From Pseudarthrobacter phenanthrenivorans (GTDB taxonomy: Bacteria; Actinomycetota; Actinomycetes; Actinomycetales; Micrococcaceae): a stretch of 64,000 nucleotides of DNA. The notes beneath the pieces are model-generated. The model had not been told where the DNA came from. It saw only the letters and a list, made by a program, of their open reading frames with translations, and did not search any database. The stretch covers positions 124,001 to 188,000 of the forward strand of contig NZ_JWTB01000007.1 in NCBI RefSeq assembly GCF_000813845.1, given 5' to 3'. The translations under genes and the position numbers were made by a program. Positions 6,642 through 44,111 of the stretch are shown in pieces (position 1 is the first letter of the stretch; each line of letters starts with the position of its first letter).

Positions 6642-8331
6642 GCTGCTGGCCTTCCTGTTGGGGACGGGGGCGCGCTTCTCCGGCGGCCGCCTCCGGCAGC
6701 GTCGCCGCAACCACCGTCGCGCCGGGTACGGGGTCGGGTGCGTCTGCCGGGATAACCTGCCGCAACCATTGTTCGGTGGTTTGCCTCTTCCGTGCCAGCC
6801 GGGCGCGGGCCGACTGCTCATTGAAGAGTTGCCTGGCCTCGTCCAGGCCGGCCTGGATCAGCCTCGGCGCAACGGGACCGGCGGTGGTGTGCAGGACCAG
6901 GTCGGCAACGCGGAACCGGCGGGCCAGCGGGCCCTGATGGAGCGCCATCGACTGCGTCCGCTGGTGCGGCACCACCACAAGGTGCCGCCACCAGCGGCCC
7001 GAGCGGATCAGCAAGGCGGTGCCGGTAGCCGCAAAGCCGTTCCGCCGCCAGGCCAGGGGTGCAAGAATCCGGGCCCGGCGCGGCGTGGTGACGAAGCCGC
7101 CGTCGGAATCCCTGCCTGTAAGCCCCGCGGCGAAAACGGCTGCGGGCGCGTCCGTCCCGGGGTCCGGGAGCACCAGCGACAGCATGGCGAGGACGTCGGC
7201 GAACGTGCCCACCGGCAGGAGGATGGTCCTGGTGTTCCCTTCGACGGCATTGCCGGAAGCCCCGTAGCCGGCGACATTGACCTGCATCCGGTACCAGCCG
7301 AGCGGACGCCACAATGGCGGCTGGGAAACCTTCACCACCTGGATCCGGCCGGGCGGCAGGGTCTGCGCCTGCGTGTCCAGCAGGCCGTACCGCAGCCGGA
7401 TCCCGTCGGGCGAGATGGCTGCGGTGAAGTTGTAGCCCTTGTTGAAGAAGTTCCAGTAACCGGCGGCGAGGCCCAGGGCGGCCGGCACCAGGTAGAAATA
7501 GAAGGCTCGGTTGTCAGTCACGGCGGACAGGACCACCGAAGCGGCGCCGCCCACCACGATGAAGAAGCTTTGCTCACTCAACAGCAGCGATCCGATAAGG
7601 CGCGACGGCGGCACGGCAAGTACGGTGGCTTCGGGCGCCTCGGGTGCAGGCAGGAAAGGGTGCTCCCCCGGGTGCAGCGCCCCGGAAGCTGTTCCGCCGA
7701 CGGTCACGGCGCCGGCGACGGGCCCGCCCGGAGCGTGGCCAGGTGCGGGACCAGGGGCGGCCGCCCCTGCCCCGGAGGCTTGGGCCAGGATGGTGGCGCG
7801 CAGCTGCCTGGCGTCCCCGATCTTGAGGTAGGCCAGGCGCACTGCGGACTCGCCGGCGTCGGCCACCTCGAACCGGAGCTCGGCCAGGCCAAAGATCCGG
7901 GCCAGCAGCGGCTGGACGATGTCGATCGCCTGCACCCGGTCCAGGCGTGCCTGCCGGTGCTGGCGGAAGAGGAAGCCGGAGTTCACCCGGACGTAGCCGC
8001 CGGATACCTGGTACTTGGTGAAGTACCAGGTGAGGACGAAGCCGAGCACGGCCACGGCCAGCACCAGCGCTCCGCCGCCCAGGAGCCACGGCGCGCGACG
8101 GGCGAAGCCGTTTTCGAACACTGCCTGTCCCTGCAGCATCCGCTCAAAGAGGTCCCGGCCAAAGAAGAACGTGATCGCGGCCAGGGCAAACCAGCCCCTG
8201 ACAAAAGGTGACGCCGGATGAACGCGCCGCCAGTCGCCGTCGGACGTGCCGGTGCTGTCCGGGACTGGGAAAGGAGGTGCGGAGGCGGGCGGAACGGGTG
8301 GCTGCCCGGGCAGGTGGCCGTCAGCCGTCAC
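6634..8331 (-). CDS. PH domain-containing membrane protein (YdbT-like, DUF304)
   Basis: A 565-residue membrane protein starting at GTG 8331, which overlaps the TGA of the preceding gene as GTGA. A short proline-rich tail is followed by paired hydrophobic segments (GWFALAAITFFFG, ALVLAVAVLGFVLTWYF). Bacterial PH (bPH_2) modules then occur in about three copies, recognisable by TKYQVSGGYVRVNSGFLFRQ, then PDGIRLRYGLLDTQAQTLP, then RILAPLAWRRNGF. YdbS/YdbT pairs are widespread membrane proteins of uncertain role, linked in some bacteria to envelope stress. It is translationally coupled to the smaller PH gene before it. Confidence 0.85.
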   Translation of the reverse strand: MTADGHLPGQPPVPPASAPPFPVPDSTGTSDGDWRRVHPASPFVRGWFALAAITFFFGRDLFERMLQGQAVFENGFARRAPWLLGGGALVLAVAVLGFVLTWYFTKYQVSGGYVRVNSGFLFRQHRQARLDRVQAIDIVQPLLARIFGLAELRFEVADAGESAVRLAYLKIGDARQLRATILAQASGAGAAAPGPAPGHAPGGPVAGAVTVGGTASGALHPGEHPFLPAPEAPEATVLAVPPSRLIGSLLLSEQSFFIVVGGAASVVLSAVTDNRAFYFYLVPAALGLAAGYWNFFNKGYNFTAAISPDGIRLRYGLLDTQAQTLPPGRIQVVKVSQPPLWRPLGWYRMQVNVAGYGASGNAVEGNTRTILLPVGTFADVLAMLSLVLPDPGTDAPAAVFAAGLTGRDSDGGFVTTPRRARILAPLAWRRNGFAATGTALLIRSGRWWRHLVVVPHQRTQSMALHQGPLARRFRVADLVLHTTAGPVAPRLIQAGLDEARQLFNEQSARARLARKRQTTEQWLRQVIPADAPDPVPGATVVAATLPEAAAGEARPRPQQEGQQHG

Positions 8332-35469: not shown

Positions 35470-35656
35470 CGGGAGTCCTGTCGTGGTGGATCAAAGTCAG
35501 TATTAAGCCTAGTAGGTCCTGCTCCGGCCAGCAGATGGACGGGCAAGGCTAGGCTTCTTGGTGACGTTGGGGCTTCCGTTGGGTTCGAAGTCCCAACTGG
35601 AGCCTGCGCAGCGCCCGCCAGGCCGGAAACCACCCGCGAGAGGACAGGAGGCCCGC

Positions 35657-37063
35657 ATGGTTGAGCTGCACGACCTCCCGGCGGTGGAGCTGCGGAACCT
35701 CCTGCGTACCGGAGAGGTGTCCGCGGTGGAGGCCGCCGCCCATTTCCTGGCCCGCATCGAACAGCGCAACCCCCTGCTGGGCGCCTTCATCACCGTCACC
35801 ACCGGGCAGGCACTGGAACAGGCGAAGGCGGCTGATGCCCGCCGCTCCCGCACAGCCGGCGGCGATCTGCCCCTGCTGCATGGCATGCCGATTGCCTTCA
35901 AGGACCTCACCGATGTGGCCGGCGTGGTGACCACCCACGGCAGTGCCGCCCTGGACCACAAGCCCGCCCCGGCGGACGCCCCGCTGGTGGCCCTCTTCAA
36001 GGACGCCGGCGTGATCTCGCTGGGCAAGACCCAGGTGCCCGAATTCGGACTGACGGCCTACAGCGAAAACCGCATCGCCCCGCCGTCGCGCAATCCGCAC
36101 GCACCCAGCAGGAGCCCGGGCGGGTCCTCCGGGGGCAGTGCAGCCGCCGTCGCGGCAGGGCTGCTCCCCTTTGCCCCGGGGACCGACGGCGGCGGATCAG
36201 TCCGCATCCCAGCTGCGGCCTGCGGACTCGTCGGGTTGAAGCCAGGCCGCGGGCTGGTGGCAGCCGGGGAGAGCGCGGGCGATCCCGCACGGCTGGTGGT
36301 GCCTGGTCCGCTCGCCCGGAACGCGGAGGACGCAGCGCTGATGATGGACGCCATGGCGCCCGGCGGCCACTACCTTGGGGCGCTTCGGCGGGAGCCGCCG
36401 CGCCTGAGGATCGGCATCACCCTGGACAGCCCCTGGTCCGGCACGTTCCCCTTCACCCCGGACCAGGAGGCCCTGGACGCGCTCCGCGCAGGCGAAAACC
36501 TCCTGGAACACGCGGGCCATACCCTTGGCGACGCCGCCATCCGTTACGACAACCGGTACCCGGACGCCTTCACCACCGCCTGGACGGCCGGGGTTGGCGC
36601 TGCCCGGATCAGCCCCGCACGCGAAGCCTCGCTGGCACCCCTCACCCGGACCTTCAGGCGGCGCGCCCAGCAACGCAGCCCGGCCAAGCTTGCCGAGTCG
36701 CTGGCATTCCTGCGCCGGTTCCAGCACGACACCCTGGCCCAGTACGGCGAGTGGGACCTGATGCTGATGCCCGCACTGGCGCAGACCCCGCGTCCGGTGG
36801 GCTGGTTCACCGGGACCGCCCACGGCAGTGAGCCTTGGCCGTCCGCCCAGTGGCCCGGAGACGCCGACGGCGACTACCGGAAGCAGTGCGAGTACGCGCC
36901 GTGGTCATCGATGGTGAACGTGTGCGGCCTGCCCGCCATCACTATTCCGGTGCACTGGACCGGCGGTTCCAGCGGCAGCGGGCTCCCCATGGGCATCCAA
37001 CTGGTGGGCCCGATGGGTTCCGAGGCCGTCCTCCTGCAGGTCGCCCACCAGCTGGGTTTCTAG
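35657..37063 (+). CDS. Amidase signature family protein
   Basis: A 468-residue amidase with the catalytic Ser-cisSer-Lys set. The lysine is in LLHGMPIAFKDLTDVAG, and the signature GGSSGGSAAAVAAGLLPFAP continues into GTDGGGSVRIPAAACGLVGL. A C-terminal substrate-pocket region follows (VCGLPAITIPVHWT). It hydrolyses an amide bond; the substrate is not evident, and lack of GatB/GatC neighbours argues against a GatA role. AGGACAGGAGG directly upstream supports ATG 35657. Its position divergent from rhodanese-pheA is probably incidental. Confidence 0.9.
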   Translation: MVELHDLPAVELRNLLRTGEVSAVEAAAHFLARIEQRNPLLGAFITVTTGQALEQAKAADARRSRTAGGDLPLLHGMPIAFKDLTDVAGVVTTHGSAALDHKPAPADAPLVALFKDAGVISLGKTQVPEFGLTAYSENRIAPPSRNPHAPSRSPGGSSGGSAAAVAAGLLPFAPGTDGGGSVRIPAAACGLVGLKPGRGLVAAGESAGDPARLVVPGPLARNAEDAALMMDAMAPGGHYLGALRREPPRLRIGITLDSPWSGTFPFTPDQEALDALRAGENLLEHAGHTLGDAAIRYDNRYPDAFTTAWTAGVGAARISPAREASLAPLTRTFRRRAQQRSPAKLAESLAFLRRFQHDTLAQYGEWDLMLMPALAQTPRPVGWFTGTAHGSEPWPSAQWPGDADGDYRKQCEYAPWSSMVNVCGLPAITIPVHWTGGSSGSGLPMGIQLVGPMGSEAVLLQVAHQLGF

Positions 37064-39126: not shown

Positions 39127-40647
39127 TCAGCGGGCTCCCAGGGTGGCGAACTTGCGGGCCCGTGCTGCCACGAGATCCGGCACGGGAGTGGACGCCACGG
39201 CGCCCAGTTCATATTCGATCGCCCTGGCCATCCGGGTGCAGAACTCGCGGGGCTCCAGTGAAGCATCCCCGCGCTCGTCCACAATGTGGTCCACCAGGCC
39301 GTTGGCGTGCAGGGCGGACACGTTGACCCCCTGGGCCTGCGCCATTGCGGGCGCGAAAGCGGTGGTCCGGTGCACGATGGCACTGGCCCCCTCCGGCGGC
39401 AGGGGCGAAAGCCAGCTGTGCTGGGCGGCGATGGTCCGGTCCGCCGGCAGCAGCGCCAGCGCCCCGCCACCGGCACCCTGGCCCAGCAGCACCGAGACCG
39501 ACGGCGATTGCAGCCCGATCAGTTCGTGCAGCGACCTGGCGATCTCCCCTGCAAGGCCGCCTTCCTCCGCTTCCTGCGAGAGCGCCGCACCGGCAGTGTC
39601 GATGACGGTGAGCAGGGGAAGCCGCAGTTCCTCCGCGAGCTTCATCCCGCGGCGGGCCTCGCGCAGCGATCCGGGCCCCATCCCGGCCGCGTCCCTCCGG
39701 AGCGGACGGGCGTGGCCCAGCACAATGCAGGACTGGCCTCCGAAACGTGCCAGCGCGAGCAGCAGCCCCGGATCCTTTTCCCCCTGGCCCGTGCCGTTGA
39801 GGGGCAGCGCGTCGGTGGCGCCGAACTTCAGCAGTTGGCGCAGGTCGGGCCGACGCGGCCGGCGGGAAAGCTCGATGGACGTCCAGGCATCAACCGTTGA
39901 CGGCCGGATGCCCAGGGTTTCGGGGGGAGCCGGCCGCACCTGGCCGGCCACGGGATCCCCCGGGGACAGCATGGCGAGTGCCCGGCCCACCAGGTCGGCA
40001 AGATCGCCCGGTTCCACCACCCCGTCGATCAATCCCTTGTGGAAGAGGTTCTCCGCCACCTGGACGTTCGCCGGGAACGGCTGGCCGTAGAGTGCCTCGT
40101 ACACCCTGGGGCCCAGGAAACCCAGCAGGGCACCGGGCTCGGCCACGTTGATGTGTCCCAGGGATCCCCAGGACGCCATGACGCCCCCGGTGGTGGGGTG
40201 CCGGAGGTAGACAAGGTAGGGAAGGCCGGCCTGGCGGTGGGCACGGACAGCGCCGGTGATTTTGACCATGGACAGGAATGCAAGCGTCCCTTCCTGCATG
40301 CGGGTTCCGCCGGAGGCGGGGCCGGCCAGCAGGGGAAGCCCCTCAGCCGTGGCACGTTCGACGGCGGCAACAATCCTTTCCGCCGCCGCGTGGCCGATCG
40401 ACCCGGCCAGGAAGGAGAATTCGCTGACGATCAGTGCCACCCGGCGGCCGCGGATGAGGCCGGCGCCGGTGAGCACGGATTCGTCGGCGCCGCTGCGCTC
40501 CCGGGCGCGGGCCAGGTCCTGCGCGTACTCCGCGGACAGGTCCGGCTGCTGCGGTTCCGTGTCCCAGGAAACGAAGGAGCCGGGGTCCACCACCGCGCCC
40601 AGCAGTTCGGCTGCGTTCATGTGCCGTACCTTTTCCGCCGTCGCCAT
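39127..40647 (-). CDS. Fused AccD/AccA-type carboxyltransferase, candidate biotin-independent decarboxylase
   Basis: A 506-residue crotonase-fold fusion. Residues about 60-270 are AccD-like (PLLAGPASGGTRMQEGTLAF, then TTGGVMASWGSLG). About 290-490 are AccA-like (LREARRGMKLAEELRLPLLT, then GQGAGGGALALLPAD). The N-terminus has no cysteine, so the AccD zinc ribbon is absent. No biotin carboxylase or biotin carrier lies nearby. The two bases between the CoA-transferase stop and this ATG mean tight coupling. With a MatC carrier and CoA-transferase in the operon, I infer a malonyl-CoA (or similar) decarboxylase comparable in principle to the MdcD/MdcE pair; a true acetyl-CoA carboxylase subunit is the alternative. 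Confidence 0.75.
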   Translation of the reverse strand: MATAEKVRHMNAAELLGAVVDPGSFVSWDTEPQQPDLSAEYAQDLARARERSGADESVLTGAGLIRGRRVALIVSEFSFLAGSIGHAAAERIVAAVERATAEGLPLLAGPASGGTRMQEGTLAFLSMVKITGAVRAHRQAGLPYLVYLRHPTTGGVMASWGSLGHINVAEPGALLGFLGPRVYEALYGQPFPANVQVAENLFHKGLIDGVVEPGDLADLVGRALAMLSPGDPVAGQVRPAPPETLGIRPSTVDAWTSIELSRRPRRPDLRQLLKFGATDALPLNGTGQGEKDPGLLLALARFGGQSCIVLGHARPLRRDAAGMGPGSLREARRGMKLAEELRLPLLTVIDTAGAALSQEAEEGGLAGEIARSLHELIGLQSPSVSVLLGQGAGGGALALLPADRTIAAQHSWLSPLPPEGASAIVHRTTAFAPAMAQAQGVNVSALHANGLVDHIVDERGDASLEPREFCTRMARAIEYELGAVASTPVPDLVAARARKFATLGAR

Positions 40648-40649
40648 GC

Positions 40650-41861
40650 CTACTTCGCCCCGGCTGCGGCAGAGGCCAGGCCCAGCCATTCCCGAATCGC
40701 CGGCCCGTCCTCGTCGAGCAAAGGCGGCGCGTCGTGTTCGGTGCGGGTGGTTTCGGCCGTGTCCCCCGGTGCGAAGAACCGCAGCGGCGGCCCGGGCAGG
40801 CTCACCTTGCCAAGGAGTGGATGCTGCACGTCCACCACCAGGCCCTGGGACGCCACCTGCTCCCAGGCGTACACCTCATCCAGGGAGCGGACCTTCCCTG
40901 CCGGGATCCCGGCGTCGTTCAGTTTGTCCAGCAGCTCCGCCGCGCCGTAGCCGGCAAAGACGCGTTCGACGGCGGCAACCACCCCGGCGCGGTTCCGCAC
41001 CCTTTCGGCGTTGCTGGCAAAGCCCGGGGCGGCCGGGTCCAGGCCGAAGGCGGAGGCGAACGTGTGCCAGAGCTTCTCGCTGCCGACGCTGATCTGGACG
41101 CTCCCGTCCCTGCAGTTGAACAGGCCGTAGGGGGCGATGGAGGGGTGGTGGTTGCCCTGGGCGCGCGGCACCTCGCCGGCGATCGTGGTCCTGGTGCCCT
41201 GGAAGGCATGCACCCCGATCAGCGATGCCAGCAGGGAGGTGCGCACCACCTGGCCCCGGCCCGTGCTGTTCCGCTCGACCAGGGCCGCCAGGACGCCAAC
41301 CGCCCCGTTCATGCCGGAGAGCAGGTCGGCGATGGGGACGCCCACGCGCTGGGGGTCGTCCGGCCCGGAACCGGTCAGGGACATGAGGCCGGCTTCGCCC
41401 TGGAGGATCTGGTCGTAGCCGCTGCGCTGGGATTCGGGTCCGTCGTGGCCAAAGCCGGTGATGGACAGGATCACCAGCCGGGGGTTGAGCGCGTGCATGG
41501 CGGCCGTGGAGAAGCCCAGCCTGTCCATCACGCCGGGCCGGAAGTTCTCGATCACCACGTCTGCCCGCTCCAGCAAGCCGCGGAGCACCGCCTGGCCGTC
41601 GCCGTTCTTCAGGTCCAGGCTGATGGACTCCTTATTGCGGTTGCAGGACATGAAGTAGGTGGACTGCAGGTCGTCTTCGGGACCGACGAACGGCGGGCCC
41701 CAGCCGCGGGTGTCATCCCCGGTGCCGGGGCTCTCCACTTTGATGACGCGGGCGCCAAGGTCCGCCAGCATCATGCCGGCGTGCGGTCCGGCCAGTGCCC
41801 GGCTGAGGTCGACCACGAGGTGTCCGGCCAGGGGGCCTCGGGTGGTTTCAGTTGTGCTCAT
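40650..41861 (-). CDS. Class III (CaiB/BaiF) CoA-transferase
   Basis: A 403-residue protein with the family opening GPLAGHLVVDLSRALAGPHA and the segment VVIENFRPGVMDRLG. The catalytic aspartate lies within SGYDQILQGEAGLMSLTG, near residue 150. Such enzymes move CoA between carboxylic acids. ATG 41861 starts at the conserved head; the frame is open further upstream into the carrier gene but without homology. Between a MatC-like carrier and an AccDA-like gene, it probably activates malonate or a related diacid; the acceptor and donor are inferred. Confidence 0.88.
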   Translation of the reverse strand: MSTTETTRGPLAGHLVVDLSRALAGPHAGMMLADLGARVIKVESPGTGDDTRGWGPPFVGPEDDLQSTYFMSCNRNKESISLDLKNGDGQAVLRGLLERADVVIENFRPGVMDRLGFSTAAMHALNPRLVILSITGFGHDGPESQRSGYDQILQGEAGLMSLTGSGPDDPQRVGVPIADLLSGMNGAVGVLAALVERNSTGRGQVVRTSLLASLIGVHAFQGTRTTIAGEVPRAQGNHHPSIAPYGLFNCRDGSVQISVGSEKLWHTFASAFGLDPAAPGFASNAERVRNRAGVVAAVERVFAGYGAAELLDKLNDAGIPAGKVRSLDEVYAWEQVASQGLVVDVQHPLLGKVSLPGPPLRFFAPGDTAETTRTEHDAPPLLDEDGPAIREWLGLASAAAGAK

Positions 41862-41911
41862 GTGCTGGGTTTTCCTTTCTGAAGTGCGTGCGCCGGCCGG
41901 TCCGTTGGCGG

Positions 41912-43279
41912 CTACAGCCAGCCGGGGACCACCAGCGCCAGCCAGGCCAGGACGGGTCCTGCCACGATGACGATTCCGCTGTAGCCGAGGATCTGCTTGT
42001 AGAACCGGTCCTTGTCCACGCCCTCCGGCGCGTTGGCCAGGACCAGGGCGCCGTTGGTGGAGAAGGGCGAAACGTCCACGATGGTGGCTGAAACGGCGAG
42101 GGCGCAGATGACACCGACGGCACCGATCTCGCCCGTGGAGAGGAACGGCACGGCGAGCGGGATGAGTGCGGCCAGGATGGCCGTGGACGATGCGAAGGCG
42201 GACACCACGGCGCCGATGAAGCAAATGATGAGTGCGGCCAGGAGCGGCATGCCCATTCCGGCGACGCCGCCGGAGACGAATTCGATGGTGCCGGCTTCCT
42301 CCAGCACGCCGACGAAGGTCAGCATGCCGCAGATCAGCAGCACGGTGGACCAGCTGATCTTGTTGATGGCGCCTTTTTGGGCTGCGGGTGAGACCAGGGC
42401 CAGGACTATGGCGATGGTGATGGAAACGAATCCGACGTCCATCTTGAAGCCGAGGGCCACGACGGCCAGCACGATCAGGCCGGCAATGGTGACGAGCTGC
42501 GGAATCCGCTCCCTGCGCTCCTTGGTGGCGGCAACGCCGTCACCTGCGGGGTCGCGGGGCCCGTACATGCCGGATCCGAATCCCTTGAAGGGAACGTCCG
42601 CGCCGGCCTTGGCGCCGACACTGACTGCCATGCGCGCCTCCGCTGCCTGTTCCACGAACTGGCCCACCCGAGAGGACAGGAGGTTCCTGCCGCCCAGGAC
42701 GACGAAGAGGACCAGCGCGATGACCAGGTTGAAGACCAGGCTCGAGAGGAACAGCGCCGTGGGGCTGAAGGCGAGGTCGGTCTTGGCCAGGATGCCGTTG
42801 ACAGTGACGCCGTAGACAGCGATGGGCGAGAAGCCGCCGGCCTGGGCGCCATGGATGACCATCATGCCCATCAGGAGCGGGCTGATCTTGTACTTGCCCG
42901 CAAAGCTCAGGGCGATGGGGGCAATGATGGCGACGGCGGCGGGAGAGAGCGCGCCCACGGCCGTGATGACGGCGGTGATCGCGAACATGACCCATGGGAT
43001 CAGGGCGACGCGGCTGCCCACCAACTTGACGGCACCGCGCACCAGGAGGTCGATGGTGCCGTTGTTCTGGGCGATGGCGAACAGATACGTGACGCCCACG
43101 ATGGTCAGGAAGAGGCCGCCGGGAAAGTTGGCCAGAATCTCGTTGGTGGACATGCCCAGCACCACGGAGCCGAGCAGGAAGGCACCGACGAACGCGAGGG
43201 CACCCATATTGAGGGGCAGGACGGTGGCGAGCAGGAACATCGCCGCCAGGATGATGATCGACAAGACAGGAGCGGACAT
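41912..43279 (-). CDS. matC: MatC-type dicarboxylate (malonate) carrier
   Basis: A 455-residue membrane protein with about 11-12 hydrophobic segments. The N-terminal half matches the MatC_N family closely: LPLNMGALAFVGAFLLGSVV, then FPGGLFLTIVGVTYLFAIAQ, then GMMVIHGAQAGGFSPIAVYG. The C-terminal half has the ion-transporter-like repeats SAFASSTAILAALIPLAVPF and DVSPFSTNGALVLANAP. Rhizobial MatC imports malonate. It is the first gene of a three-gene leftward operon and is divergent from a FadR-type regulator, as in mat loci. The specificity is inferred. Confidence 0.85.
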   Translation of the reverse strand: MSAPVLSIIILAAMFLLATVLPLNMGALAFVGAFLLGSVVLGMSTNEILANFPGGLFLTIVGVTYLFAIAQNNGTIDLLVRGAVKLVGSRVALIPWVMFAITAVITAVGALSPAAVAIIAPIALSFAGKYKISPLLMGMMVIHGAQAGGFSPIAVYGVTVNGILAKTDLAFSPTALFLSSLVFNLVIALVLFVVLGGRNLLSSRVGQFVEQAAEARMAVSVGAKAGADVPFKGFGSGMYGPRDPAGDGVAATKERRERIPQLVTIAGLIVLAVVALGFKMDVGFVSITIAIVLALVSPAAQKGAINKISWSTVLLICGMLTFVGVLEEAGTIEFVSGGVAGMGMPLLAALIICFIGAVVSAFASSTAILAALIPLAVPFLSTGEIGAVGVICALAVSATIVDVSPFSTNGALVLANAPEGVDKDRFYKQILGYSGIVIVAGPVLAWLALVVPGWL

Positions 43280-43341
43280 CGTTGGTCCTCCGTTGGGGGA
43301 AAGAATGTGACGTGAGTTACTGGCTCACTGGACTAGCCTCT

Positions 43342-43370
43342 TAGACAGTGAGTCTATCTGTCAATAGAAC
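43342..43370 (+). promoter_or_regulatory. Promoter of the GntR gene with GACAG-N9-CTGTC operator
   Basis: TAGACA (43342-43347, five of six to the minus-35 consensus) and TAGAAC (43365-43370) are 17 bp apart. An inverted repeat GACAG (43344-43348)/CTGTC (43358-43362) sits between them, which would suit autorepression. On the other strand TTGACA (43364-43359) could be the minus-35 of the matC operon. A second inverted repeat, GTGAG/CTCAC, lies at 43312-43328. Confidence 0.55.
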
Positions 43371-43412
43371 GAGGGAGTATTCTGGACAGGGACAACCCCA
43401 AGGGAGGGCTTT

Positions 43413-44111
43413 GTGGAGAAGACTGCACGGATGGGCCTGGAACGCGTCACGCGGCCACGGCTCTACGAACAGCTGGTGGAGCAGATCCTCGCCTACATCG
43501 AGTCGGCCCAGCTGCGTCCCGGCGACCTCCTGCCCGCGGAGCGCGACCTTGCCGAGCGGCTGGGAGTTTCCCGCGCTACCCTCGCCCAGGCCCTGGTGGC
43601 CTTGGAAGTACTGGGGGTCATTGACGTGCAGCATGGCACCGGGGCTGTCCTGGCCCGCCGTCCAAGCGTGGCCTCGGTGATCAAGGGCCTGCGCGAACAC
43701 CAGAGCCGGCTGCCGGAAATCGTGGAGGCACGCAGCACGCTCGAAGTGAAGTTGGCGGCACTGGCGGCCGAGCGGCGGACGGAGGAGGACCTCGCCGCCA
43801 TCGACAATGCGCTGGACGTCATGGCGCAGGAAATCAACGACGGCGACCGCGGCACGCATGGCGACGAACTGTTCCACCAGGCCATCACCGCCGCGGCGCA
43901 TTCCTCGGTCCTGGCGCAACTGATGGCCTTTATCGCGGAGATGATCCTGGAGACCCGGATGGAGTCCCTGGGCCAGCCCGGGCGGCCCGAGCAGTCACTG
44001 GCGTCCCACCGGAAAATCACCGATGCCATCAGGGCGCAGGATCCGCGGGCCGCCGCCGACGCCATGCTGGCCCACATCGAGCTGGTCTCGGACGTGGAAC
44101 TGCTCCGCTAG
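43413..44111 (+). CDS. GntR family regulator, FadR/FCD type (MatR-like)
   Basis: A 232-residue regulator starting at GTG with AAGGGAGG upstream. The winged helix reads RLYEQLVEQILAYIESAQLR, then LPAERDLAERLGVSRATLAQ. A FadR C-terminal (FCD) all-helical domain follows (VEARSTLEVKLAALAAE, GDELFHQAITAAAHS) that binds a small carboxylic acid through metal-linked histidines. It is divergent from the matC operon across a 133-bp region with two inverted repeats. A role as the malonate-responsive repressor is inferred from position and from rhizobial MatR. Confidence 0.92.
   Translation: MEKTARMGLERVTRPRLYEQLVEQILAYIESAQLRPGDLLPAERDLAERLGVSRATLAQALVALEVLGVIDVQHGTGAVLARRPSVASVIKGLREHQSRLPEIVEARSTLEVKLAALAAERRTEEDLAAIDNALDVMAQEINDGDRGTHGDELFHQAITAAAHSSVLAQLMAFIAEMILETRMESLGQPGRPEQSLASHRKITDAIRAQDPRAAADAMLAHIELVSDVELLR

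Follow-up and report, generated by a model that had tools for sequence, protein, structure and literature searches.

A mat-type operon of Pseudarthrobacter phenanthrenivorans with a class III CoA-transferase in the ligase position: a candidate route of malonate breakdown

Malonate systems and the operon of the window

In the rhizobial matR-matABC system, MatC is the carrier, MatB an AMP-forming ligase and MatA a malonyl-CoA decarboxylase (MCD) of family PF05292. In the MdcABCDEGH system a transferase makes a malonyl thioester on a dedicated acyl-carrier protein, and a pair of proteins with the carboxyltransferase (CT) fold, MdcDE, decarboxylates it without biotin; MdcDE of this biotin-independent system also decarboxylates malonyl-CoA in vitro (PMC5534430). 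Malonyl-CoA decarboxylases of CT type have already been named 'MatA' in S. coelicolor and Saccharopolyspora (PMC6491548), and malonate CoA-transferase is a described activity, from Pseudomonas ovalis, for which a review lists no KEGG function number (PMC8307300). Here we analyse an operon of Pseudarthrobacter phenanthrenivorans that appears to join these last two half-known ideas in a variant of the mat-type malonate operon. It lies at 39127-44111 of the window, by which we mean the whole 64,000-nt stretch under study (contig positions 124,001-188,000, in a genome of 4.33 Mb), and consists of a leftward trio, matC, caiB and a fused AccD/AccA gene, divergent from a gene for a GntR/FCD regulator. 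Judged by the families and their context, this operon very probably breaks down malonate, through import by MatC, CoA transfer by CaiB and biotin-free decarboxylation by the fusion.

The gene order and divergence given in a preliminary description of the sequence were confirmed, with all four genes in place and their domains found by profile search (Table 1). Its view that the locus mirrors matR-matABC stands only in part. Shared are the divergent GntR/FCD regulator, the MatC carrier (about 55–57% identical to MatC of the listed Rhizobium plasmids) and, on our reading, malonyl-CoA as the key intermediate. However, the rhizobial order is matR / matA-matB-matC (in Rhizobium TA1 matC follows the MCD and malonyl-CoA synthase genes, with a divergent GntR/FCD gene ahead), the regulators are only 29% identical, and where the rhizobia have an MCD and an AMP-forming ligase the window has a CT-fold fusion and a class III CoA-transferase.

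The closest layout is not the rhizobial one but the gntR / matC-ligase-CT layout of large actinobacterial genomes. Among 12 such genomes with a malonyl-CoA ligase, hand-picked from the phylum sample, a CT fusion without the AccD zinc ribbon lies beside the ligase in 8, with the whole operon, gntR divergent from matC-ligase-CT fusion, present in 3; no CT was seen beside the ligase in 4. The ligase of one such locus scores 851 bits to PDB 3nyq, 'Malonyl-CoA Ligase', and 271 to its next match. Besides the layout, these operons share with the window the carrier family (53–55% identity), the regulator family (52–54%) and a zinc-less CT fusion without an adjoining biotin carboxylase (BC) or biotin carboxyl carrier protein (BCCP); they differ in having a ligase rather than a CoA-transferase, and their CT fusions form a separate branch, 31–40% identical to the window's. 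They may correspond to the S. coelicolor CT-type 'MatA' (PMC6491548). The window operon thus has a gntR / matC-X-CT layout with CaiB in the ligase position, and since CaiB occupies the malonyl-CoA ligase slot of otherwise equal operons, the earlier suggestion that MatB and MatA are replaced here gains support. At one further locus (L234, genome G259) a fusion 59% identical to the window's, and inside the window clade on the tree, is transcribed away from a malonyl-CoA ligase gene whose product scores 651 bits to 3nyq; the end of the contig holds a fragment of matC. In three loci, CaiB orthologues adjoin malonyl-CoA ligases. The malonate reading is well supported by these independent contexts, having passed tests that were able to fail it.

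CaiB itself matches PF02515 over profile positions 1–364 of 366 (E 1.9e-116), and the Asp of its 'pi-AD-llsg' block, which we take to be the catalytic aspartate, is matched by Asp in each of the five PDB chains of the alignment. Its best PDB relatives, among them 4ed9, include the dicarboxylate CoA-transferases SUGCT and YfdE. We propose that it transfers CoA, acting as an acyl-CoA:malonate CoA-transferase (EC 2.8.3.3). The same chemistry could serve another natural diacid, for example methylmalonate from the thymine branch of pyrimidine breakdown or a substituted malonate. The NCBIfam relatives of CaiB act on glutarate, oxalate and mesaconate, and the oxidative pathway is reported to yield methylmalonic acid from thymine (PMC7662398). 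On a plasmid of Rhodococcus sp. USK13 (L003) the CoA-transferase and fusion genes, overlapping by 4 bases, stand beside an aromatic-degradation cluster, a context in which the substrate may be a different malonyl-type compound. For the window operon we hold this to be quite unlikely: MatC belongs to a malonate-carrier family, the sister operons hold a malonyl-CoA ligase in the slot, and no neighbour seen in the window points to another acid.

The carboxyltransferase fusion and biotin-dependent partners

To place the fusion, relatives were taken from named genomes (the best 80 of a longer list, which leans to close relatives), from an even sample of 248 Micrococcales genomes (E <= 1e-30) and from plasmids. 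In the even sample 58 genomes have a fusion match, which in 52 belongs to the window clade (50% identity or more), and neighbourhoods were drawn from the DNA around 60 sample matches. The resulting 139 window-clade loci (80 named, 54 from the Micrococcales sample, 5 from plasmids) exclude the window itself and L007, whose frame is broken in the fusion gene; L146, with its fusion over two frames, is kept in the counts and excluded from the trees, and L147 (39% identity) was counted with neither class.

Neither BC nor BCCP was found within 9 kb of the fusion at any of the 139 loci, whereas both adjoin the fusion at 10 of 10 loci with zinc-ribbon AccDA fusions (6 in the first set and 4 later). 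The set of 36 loci to which the later 4 belong divides in the same way: those 4 have the ribbon, BC and BCCP, and the other 32 lack the ribbon, with BC at none of them. The preliminary description had noted that the window fusion lacks the AccD zinc ribbon. Indeed, the domain search did not call PF17848 in it, while the AccDA fusion of Pseudonocardia alni does carry that domain, and the CxxC...CxxC pair occurs in 0 of the 139 clade loci against 6 of 6 loci of acetyl-CoA carboxylase (ACC) type. A loop also distinguishes the two groups: it reads DTxG(A/G)x(L/M)Sxx(A/S)E in 138 of the 139 proteins, the exception being the split gene of L146, and DTxGAxPGxxAE in 6 of 6 AccDA fusions nearer the Pseudonocardia alni polyketide-cluster protein. 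In trees of thinned sets (71 and 63 rows, built by a quick method with SH-aLRT support only), the zinc-less fusions fall on one side of a branch with support 99 (63-row tree), the window fusion and the ligase-linked fusions together, and the ACC-type fusions on one side of a branch with support 100 (71-row tree). In the 63-row tree the MdcDE row, a long one, joins the ACC sequences; it was rejected as an outgroup, its branch being far too long to root the tree. The domain search did not call the MCD domain PF05292 in the window fusion. Being zinc-less, encoded in a matC operon next to a proposed malonate-activating enzyme, and free of an adjoining BC or BCCP, the window protein has the features of a CT-type MatA, and we propose that it is a biotin-independent malonyl-CoA decarboxylase of this kind.

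Several observations weigh against this assignment. PccB-type biotin-dependent CTs also lack the zinc ribbon, and loss of the ribbon is thus no proof. The fusion stays below the curated cut-offs of all four related families but is much nearer AccD (171.9 against a cut-off of 317.45 bits) and AccA (152.8 bits; 119.8 against the curated 319.3) than MdcD (38.9 against 278.15) or MdcE (19.6 against 237.15). Its AlphaFold model (mean pLDDT 80.7) has the CT fold of acyl-CoA carboxylases (ACC/PCC), with the C-terminal half nearest AccA-type chains (best Z 34.9); MdcD and MdcE were not among the 50 matches listed in either fold search, which excludes nothing. Since the Chloroflexus ACC alpha chain 9m70_B likewise lacks the second PG, the loop alone is not decisive, and its value as proof of biotin independence is weakened. 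One flank is shorter than 8 kb in 24 of the 139 loci, where absences count for less. Finally, the host has six BC places (E <= 1e-20) that could in principle serve the fusion.

These points bear on the alternative that the fusion is a biotin-dependent CT borrowing its BC and carrier from elsewhere, either to run ACC in reverse on malonyl-CoA or to synthesize malonyl-CoA. Sequence and modelled fold do lie nearest the CTs of acyl-CoA carboxylases, and one of the six host BC places is free-standing, with a BCCP, in a pxpABC-like cluster (G000:C12:47500-60000, L177). The contrast between 0 of 139 and 10 of 10 loci nevertheless argues against borrowing, as do the split of zinc-less from ACC-type fusions in the trees (though with the MdcDE row among the ACC rows) and the company of MatC, CaiB, malonyl-CoA ligase and barbiturase, all catabolic partners. 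Moreover, a search limited to the free-standing type of BC found a relative (E <= 1e-130) in just 6 of 52 fusion-bearing genomes, and the BC and BCCP of the pxpABC-like cluster were rejected on this count as a required partner. We therefore regard a borrowed BC as unlikely. The statement in the preliminary description that the window contains neither BC nor carrier is upheld for BC, all six genome places lying outside (one ends 5.4 kb before the window start); the BCCP search covered only the surroundings of fusion loci.

Apart from the BC and BCCP, the L177 cluster holds LamB/YcsF-, PxpB- and PxpC-like genes and a PucR-like gene (names assigned by eye), and no carboxyltransferase gene is among its listed open reading frames (ORFs). 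The host genome has no close paralogue of the fusion, its other matches being weak (23–25% identity, two loci). CT fusions at L226, L227, L229, L231, L245, L246 and L248, which likewise lack the zinc ribbon and have neither BC nor BCCP close by, form an additional class; this class branches near the ligase-linked fusions, and a GntR gene adjoins the fusion at L227, L231 and L246. Fusion matches in two frames occur in L007 (near 7640-7666, StoSoilB13 plasmid), L146 (G082) and L258 (G425).

Recurrence of the genes, the pyrimidine link and other malonate routes

The fusion gene is accessory, as 5 of the 8 sampled genomes of the window's genus, host included, have a match. Co-occurrence of the three operon genes, proposed in the preliminary description as a check, was counted: 93 of the 139 loci (45 named, 44 sample, 4 plasmid) have caiB no more than 3 kb from the fusion, and 43 (29 named, 14 sample, 0 plasmid) have matC within 6 kb. 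The arrangement gntR-matC-caiB-fusion recurs in Micrococcaceae and Cryobacterium loci at 67–97% protein identity and so is not due to chance; in Murinocardiopsis and Nocardiopsis the order is changed to matC-fusion-caiB, which argues that the link is not merely the shared descent of one stretch. In Brevibacterium and Sediminivirga (L040, L041, L046-L049, L052-L054, L059, L061) a caiB-fusion pair sits between hisG-like and hisF-/trpE-like genes with no matC nearby, an odd place for a catabolic pair (the names HisG, HisF and TrpE, like HyuA, HyuB and NmrA below, were assigned by eye from sequence).

The 46 of 139 loci without caiB within 3 kb tell against the malonate reading. Together with fusions standing alone at conserved sites in Rhodococcus and Nocardioides, they could mean that no single pathway unites the three genes, which would then be neighbours by chance or share regulation only. 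Yet the pairing recurs across several families, even with gene order altered, and some lone-fusion genomes prove to have it elsewhere. Of 45 such genomes searched, 20 carry a caiB at another place (58–70% identity, the threshold being at least 58%) and 25 do not, again a point for the opposing side. Twenty such caiB regions, from 19 lone-fusion genomes, hold a second fusion beside caiB in 10 cases, matC in 5, barbiturase in 6 and BC in none. Some Rhodococcus and Nocardioides genomes thus carry the lone fusion as an additional paralogue, with the catabolic copy at a different place. As a counterexample, then, the lone fusions are weakened, although 25 of the 45 genomes have no second locus with caiB at this threshold, and we consider the absence of a common pathway extremely improbable.

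The lone fusions of Rhodococcus and its kin (L042, L050, L055, L069, L071-L074, L076, L077, L083, L084, L086, L091) share a conserved site, adjoining an ABC exporter-like gene in Rhodococcus and separate from any caiB-linked copy. Those of Nocardioides (L043-L045, L058, L060 and others) likewise stand at a conserved chromosomal place. We take M. tuberculosis AccD3 to be a possible relative of this lone paralogue.

A second context comes from pyrimidine breakdown, in which barbiturase and ureidomalonase yield malonic acid and urea (PMC3758960). A barbiturase gene stands no more than 6 kb from the fusion at 5 of the 54 Micrococcales loci and at 1 of the 5 from plasmids, and no more than 8 kb from caiB in 6 of the 20 caiB regions described above; assuming one barbiturase per 4 Mb genome, chance would place it within 6 kb at about 0.3% of loci. 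Against the link, barbiturase is absent within that distance from all 80 named loci. The caiB-fusion pair of Rhodococcus sp. P-2 adjoins a barbiturase gene, its product identical at 365 of 367 positions to the solved Barbiturase 5hwe, in a cluster with two uracil/xanthine-family permeases, UPRTase, an amidase and PucR regulators. Behind the pair, Embleya sp. NBC_00888 has a carbamate kinase-like gene together with a gene for a ring-opening amidohydrolase. Among PDB entries this amidohydrolase matches Barbiturase 5hwe best (594.6 bits, the next 324.1); the protein also exceeds the NCBIfam cut-off for cyanuric acid amidohydrolase, and its assignment as barbiturase rests on the PDB ranking. One locus of the sample (L111) has matC, caiB, fusion, carbamate kinase and barbiturase together. 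HyuA/HyuB hydantoinase-like genes were seen near caiB at L109, L133, L136, L143, L207-L209, L214, L220 and L222, some of these loci also having an NmrA-like gene, carbamate kinase and barbiturase. Such neighbours hint that one branch of ring breakdown is linked to ATP and releases carbamate in place of urea.

Searches for a separate malonate pathway in the host were negative: a genome profile search gave no PF05292 MCD match, genome searches no MdcA and no MdcD, and no rhizobial-type MatB exceeded the cut-off (best match 353 bits against 558). The MatB profile scores 3nyq-type ligases at 351–375 bits, so this cut-off cannot exclude them; the host was also searched directly with an actinobacterial ligase, and no 3nyq-type ligase was found at E <= 1e-110. 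PF05292 gave no match in 14 control genomes, and its matches in G067 and in the rhizobial protein show that the profile works. Across the 248 Micrococcales genomes a PF05292 MCD occurs in 1, MatB over cut-off in 2 and MdcA over cut-off in 1, as a marginal partial match. None of the 52 fusion genomes has any of the three over cut-off, and three (G110, G124, G219) have partial MdcA matches below it. In G067, the sole genome to have both, MCD and MatB lie side by side with a MatR-like regulator adjoining and no fusion. MdcD is present in 4 of 296 phylum-sample genomes, the host not among them. The absence of matA, matB and mdc proposed in the preliminary description thus holds for the host; for the other fusion genomes it carries little force as regards MCD and rhizobial-type MatB, both being so rare in the order. 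An anti-correlation with MCD and MatB was dropped on the same ground (1 and 2 of 248 genomes) and because the MatB cut-off misses actinobacterial ligases. A further weakness is that the direct ligase search covered one of the 52 fusion genomes, the host.

Gene layout, proposed route and meaning

Table 1. Features of the operon and its regulatory region (window coordinates)
Feature	Position	Strand	Description
matC	41912-43279	-	455 aa, first operon gene; MatC_N PF07158 200.7 bits (cut-off 23) and CitMHS
caiB	40650-41861	-	403 aa, class III CoA-transferase; CoA_transf_3 PF02515 389.6 bits
AccD-AccA fusion	39127-40647	-	506 aa; Carboxyl_trans PF01039 161.7 bits and ACCA PF03255 155.8 bits
gntR	43413-44111	+	232 aa; GntR and FCD domains; divergent regulator
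TAGAC-N5-GTCTA perfect dyad	43342-43356		between matC and gntR; candidate operator

With gaps of 50 bases from matC to caiB and 2 bases between the caiB stop and the fusion start, the three genes are spaced as in one operon. The longest ORFs overstate CaiB and the fusion, and the likely frames are the shorter ones of Table 1. Where a fusion locus has matC, a relative of the regulator is usually found no more than 8 kb away: at 13 of 14 such loci in the Micrococcales sample and at 27 of 29 among the named loci. The label 'FadR-type' used in the preliminary description fits the broad GntR/FCD family and not FadR itself (33 bits, against 122 for NanR and 115 for LldR). As the perfect dyad between the divergent genes is present in just 8 of 45 gntR-matC spacers, those of the window and its close relatives, it is weakly supported as an operator, and the idea of a general operator was dropped. 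Two kb past the operon is an amidase-like ORF (window 35558-37063, + strand); its family occurs near the fusion in 8 other loci, but in the window the ORF seems to belong to a neighbourhood conserved in Arthrobacter.

In the route we propose, MatC would import malonate and CaiB would shift CoA to it from a donor, either acetyl-CoA or a different acyl-CoA (succinyl-CoA, for instance), so that malonyl-CoA forms and the acid of the donor is set free. The fusion would then decarboxylate malonyl-CoA to acetyl-CoA and CO2 without biotin, a step for which MdcDE, of the same fold, provides the precedent. With acetyl-CoA as donor the net conversion would be malonate to acetate and CO2, and with succinyl-CoA the acetyl group would stay on CoA. 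Such a cycle would follow the logic of the mdc system but act on free CoA, where mdc uses its dedicated carrier protein; no mdc gene is present in the window operon. The GntR/FCD protein would control the operon. In other actinobacteria the same pair would also dispose of malonate formed from uracil via barbiturate, and possibly of methylmalonate from thymine.

How new this route is depends on the part considered. The preliminary description called it possibly new, which must be narrowed since a CT-type MatA decarboxylase was named earlier (PMC6491548); for the CoA-transferase version and its pyrimidine link, no description was found in searches of the open PMC literature. Citation of R. trifolii for CT-type MatA does not seem to carry over, as MatA of Rhizobium leguminosarum bv. 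trifolii TA1 is of the PF05292 type. On balance we think it likely that the operon represents a third bacterial form of malonate activation, in which a class III CoA-transferase (the first sequence for EC 2.8.3.3) and a biotin-free, ACC-derived malonyl-CoA decarboxylase replace the ligase in matC operons and also complete oxidative uracil breakdown once barbiturase and ureidomalonase have acted.

If this is true, the operon would provide candidate genes for malonate CoA-transferase, the activity without a KEGG function number in the review (PMC8307300), and would indicate that an ACC carboxyltransferase can turn into a free-standing decarboxylase. Oxidative pyrimidine breakdown in actinobacteria would gain its final steps, and automatic annotations ('acetyl-CoA carboxylase', 'carboxyl transferase domain') would be corrected for enzymes whose reaction probably goes the opposite way. 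The operon would also offer polyketide engineers a small malonyl-CoA module in which malonate is activated without direct use of ATP.

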